Shown here piece after piece: positions 29,463-35,953 of a stretch of 35,953 nucleotides of DNA. The stretch is taken from positions 1-35,953 of the forward strand of contig LLZO01000343.1 of NCBI GenBank assembly GCA_001567545.1. Direction: 5' to 3'. Every line of letters starts with the position of its first letter. Position 1 is the first letter of the stretch. The notes beneath the pieces are model-generated. The model ran no database searches. It was not told the DNA's origin and saw only the letters and a list, made by a program, of their open reading frames with translations. Origin of the DNA: Candidatus Tepidiaquacellales bacterium OLB5. GTDB taxonomy: Bacteria > Bacteroidota > Ignavibacteria > Tepidaquicellales > OLB5. The position numbers were made by a program, and so were the translations under genes.

Positions 29463-30761
29463 TTACTTCAGCTTTTCAAATACAAGATGATTAAGATGTT
29501 CGTGAAATGCATCATTTTCTATTGTTTCAAAAATATCATTTGCAAATGCTCTTATAAGCACGGTGCGCGCCATTTCTTCCCCTATTCCGCGTGAGCGCAG
29601 GTAGAACACAGCTTCATCATCAAGCTGCCCGATTGCAGCACCATGAGAACATTTTACATCATCAGCAAATATTTCCAGCTGCGGTTTTGTATCTATAGAA
29701 GCTGTATCAGTTAAAAGTATTGCTTTATTTGACTGGTATGCATTGGTTTTCTGCGCATCTTCTCTTACAAATACTTTGCCGTTAAATACACCTTTGGATC
29801 TGTCATTAAGAACTCCTTTATACATTTCATTGCTCTGGCAGTGAGGTTTGGCATGGTCTATTAATGTATGATTATCAACATGCTGGTTACCTTCGGTCAG
29901 GTATAAGCCGTATAAATTACCGGTACAGTTTTCTGCATCAAGCTTAATATTGGTATCATTCCTGACTATCCCTCCTCCAAGAGTCACGCTGTAATGAGTA
30001 AAAGTTGAATTAGCTGACTGAAGGGCATGTGTTCTGTTAATCTGGAATGAGCTTTCATTTTCCTGCTGTAGCCTGTAAATTTCAACAATTGAACCTTCAC
30101 CAACAGCTATTTCGCTCACTGCGTTCACTAAATTAGCTTCGCTTCCTGTGCTGTGATAACTTTCGATAATTTTTACATTACAGTTCTTACCTGTAATTAT
30201 TATATGCCGTGGCTGGGTAAGGATATTCCTGTCTTTTTCACCGGTAATGTTCAGAAGGTGAATGTGGCCGTTAACTGCAGCATTATCCGGAACAAATATA
30301 ACAGCTCCTTCGCCGGCAAATGCTGTATTTAATGCAGTAAAACCGTTATCAATTTCAGCTATTTTGCCTATATGATCAAGTATTAAACCCGCGTTATTTT
30401 TAATAACATTTTTTAAGCTCTCAATAACAATTCCGGTTTGCTGTTTTTTAATGCTTGAATGCTTTTCGGAATAAATGCCGTTAACAAAAACGATAACGTT
30501 TTCATCCAGGCCTTTAATCATATATTTTTCAACTTCCTTTTTGGAAATGTTAAGATCAGCGCCTTTGGTAAATTCATAGTTAAATAACGGGCTTATATTT
30601 GTATATTTCCAGTCCTCATTTTTTAAGGATGGGAAGCCCAGTTCATCGAATTTAGCTATTGCGCTTTTCCTGAACTGATGAAATGCTGTCGATGCTTCAC
30701 CGTTCATGTTCTCTTCAGCTTTGCGGAAATCTGATATGTATTTTTCTTTAATTGTTTCCAT
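29463..30761 (-). CDS. sufD: SufD, FeS scaffold-complex subunit
   Basis: A 432-residue SufD protein. The N-terminal helical region (FHQFRKSAIAKFDELGFPSLKNEDWKYTNISPL) is followed by the right-handed beta-helix core and the C-terminal SufBD signature: KPHCQSNEMYKGVLNDRSKGVFNGKVFV, then EIFADDVKCSHGAAIGQLDDEAVFYLRSRGI. SufD forms the SufB-C2-D scaffold complex on which clusters are built and is needed for iron entry. It lies 14 nt after sufC and 2 nt before sufS. Confidence 0.95.
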   Translation of the reverse strand: METIKEKYISDFRKAEENMNGEASTAFHQFRKSAIAKFDELGFPSLKNEDWKYTNISPLFNYEFTKGADLNISKKEVEKYMIKGLDENVIVFVNGIYSEKHSSIKKQQTGIVIESLKNVIKNNAGLILDHIGKIAEIDNGFTALNTAFAGEGAVIFVPDNAAVNGHIHLLNITGEKDRNILTQPRHIIITGKNCNVKIIESYHSTGSEANLVNAVSEIAVGEGSIVEIYRLQQENESSFQINRTHALQSANSTFTHYSVTLGGGIVRNDTNIKLDAENCTGNLYGLYLTEGNQHVDNHTLIDHAKPHCQSNEMYKGVLNDRSKGVFNGKVFVREDAQKTNAYQSNKAILLTDTASIDTKPQLEIFADDVKCSHGAAIGQLDDEAVFYLRSRGIGEEMARTVLIRAFANDIFETIENDAFHEHLNHLVFEKLK

Positions 30762-30775
30762 TTTTCTCCGGGTAA

Positions 30776-31540
30776 TTAAACTGCTGCTTCTTCAGTTACT
30801 GGATTTGCAACCCAGTCGTAACCTTTTTCTTCAAGCTCCAGAGCAAGATCTTTGCCTCCAGATTTAACTATTCTGCCGTTAACAAGCACATGAACAAAAT
30901 CAGGAACAATGTAATTTAAAAGCCGCTGGTAATGAGTAACTACAATTACAGCATTTTCTTTGCTTCGGAAAGTATTCACTCCGCTGGAAACTATTTTTAA
31001 AGCATCGATATCCAGCCCTGAATCAGTTTCATCCAGCACAGCAAGCTTAGGCTGCAGCATCTGAAGCTGGAATATCTCATTCCTTTTCTTTTCACCGCCG
31101 CTGAAACCCTGGTTAACAGGGCGGTTAATCAGCTTTTCATCAATTCCCACAACACGCATTTTTTCCTTCATATATTTCAGAAATTGCATTGCATCAAGCT
31201 CTTCATGCCCGTTGTGTTTCCTGATTTCGTTTAATGCTGTTTTCAGGAAAGTTGCATTACTTACACCGGGAATTTCCACAGGATACTGAAAAGCAAGGAA
31301 AACACCTTCCCAGGCTCTTTCTTCGGGAGACATTTCAAGCAGGTCTGTTCCGTTAAGGGAAACAGTTCCGCCTGTTACTTCGTAACCATCTTTTCCTGCA
31401 ATAACATTTGCTAGAGTGCTTTTTCCTGAACCGTTAGGTCCCATAATAGCGTGAACTTCTCCGGCATTTACTTCAAGGTTAATACCTTTCAGAATTTCTT
31501 TTTCTTCTACCTTTACGAAAAGGTCTTTTACAATTAACAT
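30776..31540 (-). CDS. sufC: SufC, scaffold-complex ATPase
   Basis: A 254-residue ABC-type ATPase. Walker A is GPNGSGKST (34-42), the signature is FSGGEKKRNE, and Walker B with its Glu is LAVLDETDSGLD; the D-loop and H-loop (VTHYQRLL) follow. These are the specific SufC variants (SGLDIDAL, GGxKDLALELEEKGYDW at the end). It powers conformational change in the SufBCD complex. It lies 60 nt downstream of sufB and 14 nt upstream of sufD. Confidence 0.96.
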   Translation of the reverse strand: MLIVKDLFVKVEEKEILKGINLEVNAGEVHAIMGPNGSGKSTLANVIAGKDGYEVTGGTVSLNGTDLLEMSPEERAWEGVFLAFQYPVEIPGVSNATFLKTALNEIRKHNGHEELDAMQFLKYMKEKMRVVGIDEKLINRPVNQGFSGGEKKRNEIFQLQMLQPKLAVLDETDSGLDIDALKIVSSGVNTFRSKENAVIVVTHYQRLLNYIVPDFVHVLVNGRIVKSGGKDLALELEEKGYDWVANPVTEEAAV

Positions 31541-31600
31541 TATTTAATATTCCTTTACAATTATATATTATTTTTATTTTTAAATTCTGATTGAACAATG

Positions 31601-33055
31601 CTAGCCAACGCTTCCTTCAAGTGATATACTGAGCAGTTTTTGCGCTTCAACGGCAAATTCCATAGGCAGCTCGCGGAATACATCTTTGCAGTACCCGTTT
31701 ACTATCATGTTTATCGAATCTTCCATAGAAATACCTCTTTGCCTTAAATAAAACAACTGGTCTTCGCCTATCTTGGATGTAGTAGCTTCGTGTTCAACTT
31801 TTGCTGACTGGTTGTTGACTTCAATATACGGGAAAGTATGCGCTCCGCACCTGTCGCCTATCAGCAGTGAATCACACTGTGTGAAGTTTCTGGAATTTTC
31901 AGCATTTTTATGTACTTTAACTAATCCGCGGTACGAGTTATTGCTTTTACCTGCTGAAATTCCCTTGGAGACTATTGTACTTTTGGTATTTTTACCAAGG
32001 TGAATCATTTTTGTACCGGTATCTGCCTGCTGAAAGTTGTTAGTAACGGCTACAGAATAGAATTCACCAATTGAATTATCACCCTGCAGAATGCAGCTTG
32101 GATATTTCCATGTAATAGCAGAACCGGTTTCTACCTGTGTCCACGTTATTTTGGAATTAACTCCCCTGCATGCTCCCCGTTTGGTAACAAAATTATAAAT
32201 CCCGCCTTTGCCTTCCTGGTCTCCGGGATACCAGTTCTGTACAGTTGAATACTTTATTGTGGCATTATCCAGAGCAATTAATTCTACAACAGCTGCATGC
32301 AGCTGGTTTTCATCCCTCATGGGTGCCGTACAGCCTTCAAGGTAGCTTACATATCCGCCTTCATCGGCAATCAATAATGTACGTTCAAACTGTCCGGTAC
32401 CGCTTGTATTTATTCTGAAATAAGTTGAAAGCTCCATAGGGCATCTGACTCCTTTGGGTATATAGCAGAATGAACCGTCACTGAATACTGCGGAATTTAA
32501 TGCTGCATAAAAATTATCGGTATATGGTACAACTGAACCAATATATTTTTTTACCAGTTCGGGATGCTCTTTTACTGCTTCGCTCATTGAGCAGAATATA
32601 ATTCCAAGCTTCGAAAGCTCTTCTTTAAATGTTGTTGTTACCGATACACTGTCAAAAACCGCATCAACGGCTACACCTGATAATCTTTTCTGCTCCTGCA
32701 GAGAAATCCCCAGCTTCTCAAATGTTTTTAAAAGCTCAGGATCTACTTCGTCAAGTGATTTAAGTTCAGGCTTTTTCTTTGGTGCTGCATAATATATTAT
32801 ATCCTGAAAATCTACTGCAGGATATGAAATGTTTGCCCATTTAGGTTCTGATTGTTTTTCCAGTGTTAACCAATGGCGGAAAGCTTTCAGTCTCCATTCA
32901 AGCATCCATTCCGGCTCATTTTTCTTTTCTGAAATTTTCCTTACAATATCTTCATTCAGCCCTTTGGGAAGGGTTTCCATTTCAATTTCAGTTTCAAAAC
33001 CATATTTATAATCTTTAATGGCTAATTCTTCAACATTAGAAAGCTCTGTGCTCAT
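31601..33055 (-). CDS. sufB: SufB, Fe-S cluster scaffold
   Basis: A 484-residue scaffold on which the nascent cluster forms. The typical N-terminus ([26 protein letters not shown] ... [16 protein letters not shown]) and C-terminus ([43 protein letters not shown], split for reading) are present, including the conserved Cys and His/Glu ligands near CGAHTFPY and KVEHEAT. It is the first gene of the operon. The upstream 114 bp contain TAATTTG (minus strand, 33123-33117), one base short of a TAnnTTTG -7 box, so the promoter is plausible but not certain; an Rrf2-type operator should lie here too. Confidence 0.96.
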
Positions 33056-35224: not shown

Positions 35225-35473
35225 ATGACAAATTCAATTGATCAGCAGGTAATAGATTTTACAGCAGCTTACACAGGTTCATCGCCCGGTGCAATAAACA
35301 ATTCAACAACCCTGGATAGTCTGGGAATTGTAACTAAACAGGATGTAGTTGATTATGTTACTGAACTTGAAGACAGCTTTGATTTAATGTACGAGGAAGG
35401 TGATGCAAATGGGATTGTAACAGTTGGTGATGCTGCAGCTTTGATTGAAAGAAAATTAGGTGAAAACGGATAG
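35225..35473 (+). CDS. Acyl-carrier-protein-like protein with an atypical helix II
   Basis: An 82-residue protein, start chosen at ATG 35225 because of the GAGGAAATTA ribosome binding site; the frame is open further upstream but has no such site. The C-terminal half looks like an acyl carrier protein: VVDYVTELEDSFDLMYEEG then IVTVGDAAALIERKLG. The motif TLDSLGIV contains the DSL Ser of carrier proteins, but it lies six residues farther from the helix II Phe than in normal ACPs; in an ungapped alignment the Ser position is Lys (TKQD). So either helix II has an insertion or this is a carrier fold without the phosphopantetheine site. A strong terminator follows. No fatty-acid or peptide synthesis genes are adjacent. 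Confidence 0.6.
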   Translation: MTNSIDQQVIDFTAAYTGSSPGAINNSTTLDSLGIVTKQDVVDYVTELEDSFDLMYEEGDANGIVTVGDAAALIERKLGENG

Positions 35474-35561: not shown

Positions 35562-35680
35562 AAAAAAAACGCAGCAGGTTTTTTCGGAACACTGGGAGCG
35601 TTCGTACTAAAAACGTTAGCCACCCTTACCTAGCTAACTCCTGCTGCAAAATTTTGATTGTATAAAGAACCTGTCTTAAT
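35562..35680 (-). ncRNA. Candidate stand-alone structured small RNA, three-way junction
   Basis: Minus-strand RNA of about 118 nt in a 333-bp region otherwise without a gene. P1: GCAGCAGG (35647-35640) with CCTGCTGC (35578-35571). P2: GTTAGC (35638-35633) with GCTAAC (35620-35615), extended by a U-G and an A-U. P3/P4: UUUUU (35613-35609) with AAAAA (35583-35579) below the hairpin GAACGCU-CCC-AGUGUUC (35603-35587). The P2 loop GGUAAGGG and the P4 loop CCC could kiss. P1 is followed by U8 (35569-35562). The two non-Watson-Crick pairs are G-U on this strand but would be A-C mismatches on the plus strand, which supports minus-strand transcription. I do not recognise a known RNA family: SRP, 6S and common riboswitch motifs are absent. 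Confidence 0.6.
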
Positions 35681-35686
35681 CTGTTA

Positions 35687-35716
35687 CAAATATAATAAAT
35701 TCATTTTATATGTCAA
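35687..35716 (-). promoter_or_regulatory. Promoter of the candidate small RNA (TTGACA - TATATTTG)
   Basis: On the minus strand TTGACA (35716-35711) precedes TATATTTG (35694-35687), an exact TAnnTTTG -7 box, with 19 nt between TTG and the box. This is the best promoter in the window. The start would be near 35680, about 33 nt before P1 of the RNA. Confidence 0.65.
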
Positions 35717-35806: not shown

Positions 35807-35953
35807 ATGTCTAACGGACCCTCTAAAGAAGACCTGGAATTATACTGGCAAAACAGCCGACAGTATTTTGATGAGCTTGCAAGGCATTACCAGCAGGCTG
35901 ACCCGGAGTATTACAGGAAAAATATTAAGCCGTTCTATGATAACCCTTTCAGA
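35807..35953 (+). CDS. Unknown protein, 5' end only
   Basis: An open frame of 49 codons from ATG 35807 to the window edge, with no stop. The visible part is hydrophilic with many Tyr, Glu, Asp and Gln (LYWQNSRQYFDELARHYQ, DPEYYRKNIKPFYDNP), no signal peptide. Not recognised. It is divergent from the candidate small RNA; the gap contains its promoter region but no clear TAnnTTTG on the plus strand. Confidence 0.55.
   Translation, partial: MSNGPSKEDLELYWQNSRQYFDELARHYQQADPEYYRKNIKPFYDNPFR

Follow-up and report, generated by a model that had tools for sequence, protein, structure and literature searches.

A conserved three-way-junction RNA, apparently a new family, in one lineage of Ignavibacteria

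The lysine riboswitch contains a bulged-G/loop E motif, and helix 95 of 23S rRNA carries a sarcin-ricin/bulged-G motif. On rRNA, the NusB-S10 antitermination complex is nucleated at boxA (PMC10250234), and it has a protective role on long noncoding transcripts too, CRISPR arrays among them (PMC12691694). Here we describe an RNA gene that joins a boxA-like leader element to a putative bulged-G internal loop. The window, that is, the whole stretch of DNA analysed, comprises 35,953 nt and is an entire contig (G000:C343) of Candidatus Tepidiaquacellales bacterium OLB5. The RNA gene occupies its minus strand within a gene-free gap whose reported length of 333 bp was borne out by measurement (stop at 35473 to ATG at 35807), both genes bounding the gap being encoded on the plus strand. 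Elsewhere in the window, SUF iron-sulphur cluster genes lie at 29463-33055 on the minus strand (SufBD at 31601-33055 and 29463-30761, with a third frame between). A reading of the sequence alone had proposed an undescribed structured small RNA in this gap; the Rfam, homologue, covariation and promoter/terminator checks were all favourable, and these sequence comparisons give good support to a new family of structured RNA that belongs to a single bacterial lineage and is not in Rfam.

Organization of the RNA gene

The features of the gene, from promoter to terminator, are the following.

35687..35716, minus strand: promoter, TTGACA (35716-35711), a 16-nt spacer and TATATTTG (35694-35687)
35648..35686, minus strand: untranslated leader of about 35 nt, from the alignment of 14 primary copies
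35664..35670, minus strand: GTTCTTT, boxA-like element, unchanged in 13 of the 14 primary copies
35571..35647, minus strand: structured core of 77 nt with a three-way junction (the covariance model spans 35649-35560)
35640..35647, minus strand: 5' strand of P1, GCAGCAGG, with its partner CCTGCTGC at 35578-35571; both sides changed in 5 of 8 pairs
35615..35638, minus strand: P2 hairpin of 6 bp, GTTAGC (35638-35633) with GCTAAC (35620-35615); both sides changed in 5 of 6 pairs
35632-35621, minus strand: P2 loop of 12 nt, UAGGUAAGGGUG, the same in every copy but L094
35609..35612, minus strand: 5' strand of P1b, UUUU, with its partner at 35582-35579
35605..35608, minus strand: AGUA, opposite GAA (35585-35583), putative bulged-G internal loop, kept in nearly all copies
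35587..35603, minus strand: P3 hairpin, GAACGC (35603-35598) with GTGTTC (35592-35587), loop UCCCA (35597-35593)
35562..35578, minus strand: 3' strand of P1 and U8 tract, intrinsic terminator (T8 at 35569-35562)

The RNA had been credited with its own promoter of ideal spacing; both promoter elements are present and kept in the primary copies of relatives, but the 16-nt spacer is not exactly ideal. Judged from the promoter position, the transcript is expected to start near 35684-35680. The U8 tract described directly after P1 is there, complete copies have a U-rich tract in the same place, and the terminator as well as the promoter is kept across genomes. The leader carries a conserved GTTCTTT that had gone unreported: in the alignment of the 14 primary copies the leader is variable except for this element. 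Conservation of promoter, leader and terminator thus points to a separate stable transcript. An anti-terminator formed by the leader GUUCUUU and the 3' AAAAAAC was rejected because the leader sequence is constant while its partner varies.

The same GTTCTTT recurs in the rRNA leaders of four genomes (G000, G002, G008 and G013), about 150 nt upstream of the 16S gene. The element can be called boxA-like in that its GTTCTTT core is identical to the sequence in the organism's own rrn leader, an assignment that consists of one 7-mer plus its conservation; G003 has GTTCATTT. No GTTCTTT was found near the RNase P RNA or SRP RNA genes. The rRNA leaders themselves (L101-L104, upstream of 16S) display a TTGAC...TTTG promoter together with the boxA-like element ACGTTCTTTCAACA, kept across two genera.

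Fold and covariation

The proposed P1 of 8 bp was recovered intact. The other two hairpins exist but are shorter than had been drawn, P2 having 6 bp instead of 8 and the P3/P4 arm of about 12 bp being a single helix of 6-7 bp. The three-way junction is also present, although it consists of P1, P2 and an overlooked helix, P1b, which extends P1 past P2. This helix was found by a scan of all column pairs, in which 35611:35580 is U-A 10 times, C-G 8 times and A-U once; it also appears in single-sequence folds of L065, L078, L093 and L094, and in L078 has one additional base per strand. Between P1b and P3 sits AGUA/GAA, which on its sequence match we take to be the bulged-G (sarcin-ricin/loop E) motif; AGUA lies opposite GAA between two helices in most copies, with 3' CAA in L088 and L093.

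Base pairs were counted over 20 distinct aligned sequences in an alignment fitted to the covariance model. Standard pairs filled 95.4% of cells, and both sides had changed in 17 of the 28 proposed pairs, including 6 of 7 in P3 when its outer pair 35604:35586 is counted. The observed covariation score was reached by 0 of 500 shuffles, sliding the partners destroyed the covariation, and a MAFFT alignment of 14 copies, made before model fitting, gave the same answer. As a phylogeny-aware null, substitutions were redistributed on the tree, in place of R-scape; here the seven best of 4,095 column pairs all fell within the structure, just two pairs were individually at E≤0.05, and 35611:35580 remained below significance, probably owing to few change events. 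The covariance model with covarying pairs that the sequence-only reading had looked for was therefore obtained, for P1, P2 and P3. The loops are invariant and the stems vary, diverged paralogues retain the same loops, and selection on the fold is strong.

The 90-nt core folds at −31.2 kcal/mol as against −22.7 kcal/mol for shuffles and is more stable than 195 of 200 dinucleotide shuffles (z=−2.44); no folding excess over shuffles was seen for the region's plus strand (z=−0.24). Counted across the alignment of copies, there are 33 G-U cells and 5 A-C cells, in agreement with the earlier observation that wobble pairs favour the minus strand, which is therefore the RNA sense. A kissing contact between the loops had been suggested as well: CCC in the P3 loop (35596-35594) can pair with GGG in the P2 loop (35625-35623) in 100% of cells, but the contact is unproven because no copy displays a double change.

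Distribution and genomic context

By DNA search the element was located in every one of the other 12 members of the genus and, outside it, in two more genera of the family; the search also gave diverged second copies sharing just the segment from P1 to the terminator. Covariance model R1 found 25 copies or fragments in all 15 sampled genomes of the family (Ignavibacteria), which supplies the homologues anticipated in related genomes; copy numbers of one to five per genome (maximum five, in G009) are not those of a many-copy repeat element. No convincing match was obtained with R1 in 29 sister-family genomes or, outside the family, in a class sample of 391 genomes, nor with model R2 outside the family in a phylum sample of 396 genomes (the samples overlap). 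The weak outside matches that were read out (L096, L097, L099, L100, L111, L112, L119 and L120) proved to be simple terminators, AT-rich sequences or partial matches without stems, and, with so many genomes searched, matches at such E-values are no more than chance would give. When 84,980 species genomes were scanned for an exact pattern, 23 stretches were returned, 22 of them from Ignavibacteria/Chlorobiota MAGs; the other (L056, Roizmanbacteria) is without the stems and appears to be a chance hit. No match came from the phage, plasmid and viral collections.

Seven genomes have a core of 77 nt that is 100% identical to that of the window, with flanks 46-81% identical, and in the three of these for which the neighbouring protein was measured it is 48-52% identical. 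In the assembly of G007 the RNA gene is split between two contigs (L049 at the end of C132 and L040 at the start of C241, with an overlap of about 59 nt), and a core shared identically by co-occurring species may be the reason.

The primary copy occupies a related locus in 14 genomes, divergent from a membrane-protein gene and, in most of them, with a convergent small acyl-carrier-like gene opposite; L034, L037 and L078 likewise face convergent genes. Since the primary copy and several others are so placed, the earlier statement that the RNA is not a leader is supported. Extra copies are found at unrelated loci. In L016/L078, L033 and L038/L039 promoter elements abut P1, and the transcribed unit therefore extends from P1 to the terminator. 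Four copies (L032, L035, L036 and L094) lie 8-28 nt downstream of a stop codon. L035 and L032 represent an orthologous extra copy, placed just after an Omp28-like gene in G011 and apparently in G006 too, as that gene's apparent 3' UTR and terminator. The genes downstream of the copies are convergent or unrelated and include no recurrent family except at orthologous loci, so the recurrent same-direction downstream gene expected of a riboswitch is missing.

The family had not been recognised from the sequence, and Rfam 15 gave no match at the gathering score for the window copy and nine loci with other copies. SRP RNA, or a replacement for it, was rejected as an identity, RF00169 having located SRP RNA elsewhere in each of the seven genomes tested. 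The 6S RNA model RF00013 had no match either, but it also misses a Bacteroides control genome; the fold here differs from a long hairpin with a central bubble. No tRNA or tmRNA was found, and none of the papers covered by the literature search combined 'Ignavibacteri', 'small RNA' and 'sRNA'. An RNase P class A RNA lies in the window at 2197-2570 on the plus strand (195.8 bits).

Possible roles and comparison with known RNAs

We consider it probable, on sequence evidence, that the gene encodes an independently transcribed, housekeeping-type, protein-binding RNA acting in trans. A housekeeping job is suggested by its presence in 15 of 15 genomes, its conserved promoter and its rRNA-like leader element; a trans-acting, protein-facing RNA is favoured by the placement of the invariant positions in loops and junction and by the free variation of the stems, and the invariant loops and the type of motif would fit protein binding. 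Counting against this interpretation are its narrow distribution, in one family of uncultured bacteria, and the four extra copies that resemble 3' UTRs and leave room for a cis role.

The main rival is a base-pairing regulatory sRNA, which we regard as rather unlikely; its P3 loop (CUCCCA) or P2 loop would pair with mRNAs, ribosome-binding sites being one possible place, and the GGG/CCC contact would mask the seed until needed. The separate promoter and terminator, the multiple copies, the C-rich apical loop and the invariance of the loops would all suit such an sRNA. However, complements of the P2 loop (13-mer, at most one mismatch) in G000 and G008 matched the RNA gene alone, this search gave no target recurrent across the genus, and the conserved positions, which include the junction and the bulged-G loop, cover far more than a seed. 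A cis-acting element, whether riboswitch, attenuator, specialised terminator or 3'-UTR stabiliser, is less probable still: the 3' strand of P1 doubles as a terminator and four copies closely follow stop codons, as such an element might, but the convergent genes facing the primary copy and three others, the lack of a recurrent downstream family apart from orthologous loci, and the several copies that start at their own promoter as a transcript without a gene all speak against it, and a plain terminator would not retain a 12-nt loop and a covarying three-way junction. That the locus is a chance hairpin, a simple terminator pair or a repeat element is hardly credible; the single-sequence fold exceeds shuffles just moderately (z about −2.4), but the covariation contradicts this reading, as do family-wide conservation, compensatory changes, a conserved promoter and the presence of 1-5 copies per genome instead of many.

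If the RNA is indeed a protein-binding, trans-acting one, RNA polymerase would start near 35682, the boxA-like element would recruit the NusB-S10 machinery as on rRNA, and the leader may then be trimmed. The stable core of about 85-90 nt (P1, P2, P1b, the bulged-G-type loop and P3) would form a rigid scaffold that binds its protein partner via the invariant P2 loop, the junction and the bulged-G surface, and the extra copies at mRNA 3' ends would provide this module as part of 3' UTRs. More tentatively, it could be a lineage-specific housekeeping RNA, made in the manner of an rRNA-type stable transcript, with a promoter of similar type and a boxA-like leader, and forming the core of a ribonucleoprotein in translation, ribosome assembly or transcription. 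Structured RNAs usually have an important function when they are as strongly conserved as this one, which is identical over 77 nt where a neighbouring protein has drifted to about 50%. For this family a covariance model is already available, the gene is delimited and the predictions are clear; natural experiments are offered by the paralogues located at the 3' ends of mRNAs.

Among described systems, SRP RNA, RNase P RNA and 6S RNA resemble this RNA in being independent transcription units with a conserved fold and family-wide presence, but their sequence and structure are unmatched here, and SRP RNA and RNase P RNA are located elsewhere. The purine and lysine riboswitches share the helical layout of a three-way junction and possible kissing loops; unlike them, the present element has no Rfam match and no consistent downstream gene, and several of its copies stand alone. 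The AGUA/GAA internal loop adjoining a short helix recalls helix 95 of 23S rRNA, whereas the hairpin beyond the motif is longer here and ends in UCCCA; the resemblance would be that of a common three-dimensional module and not homology. The rRNA operon leaders with boxA, in the same genomes, share GTTCTTT and a similar type of promoter, but in place of an rRNA operon the leader described here precedes one short RNA that ends at an intrinsic terminator.
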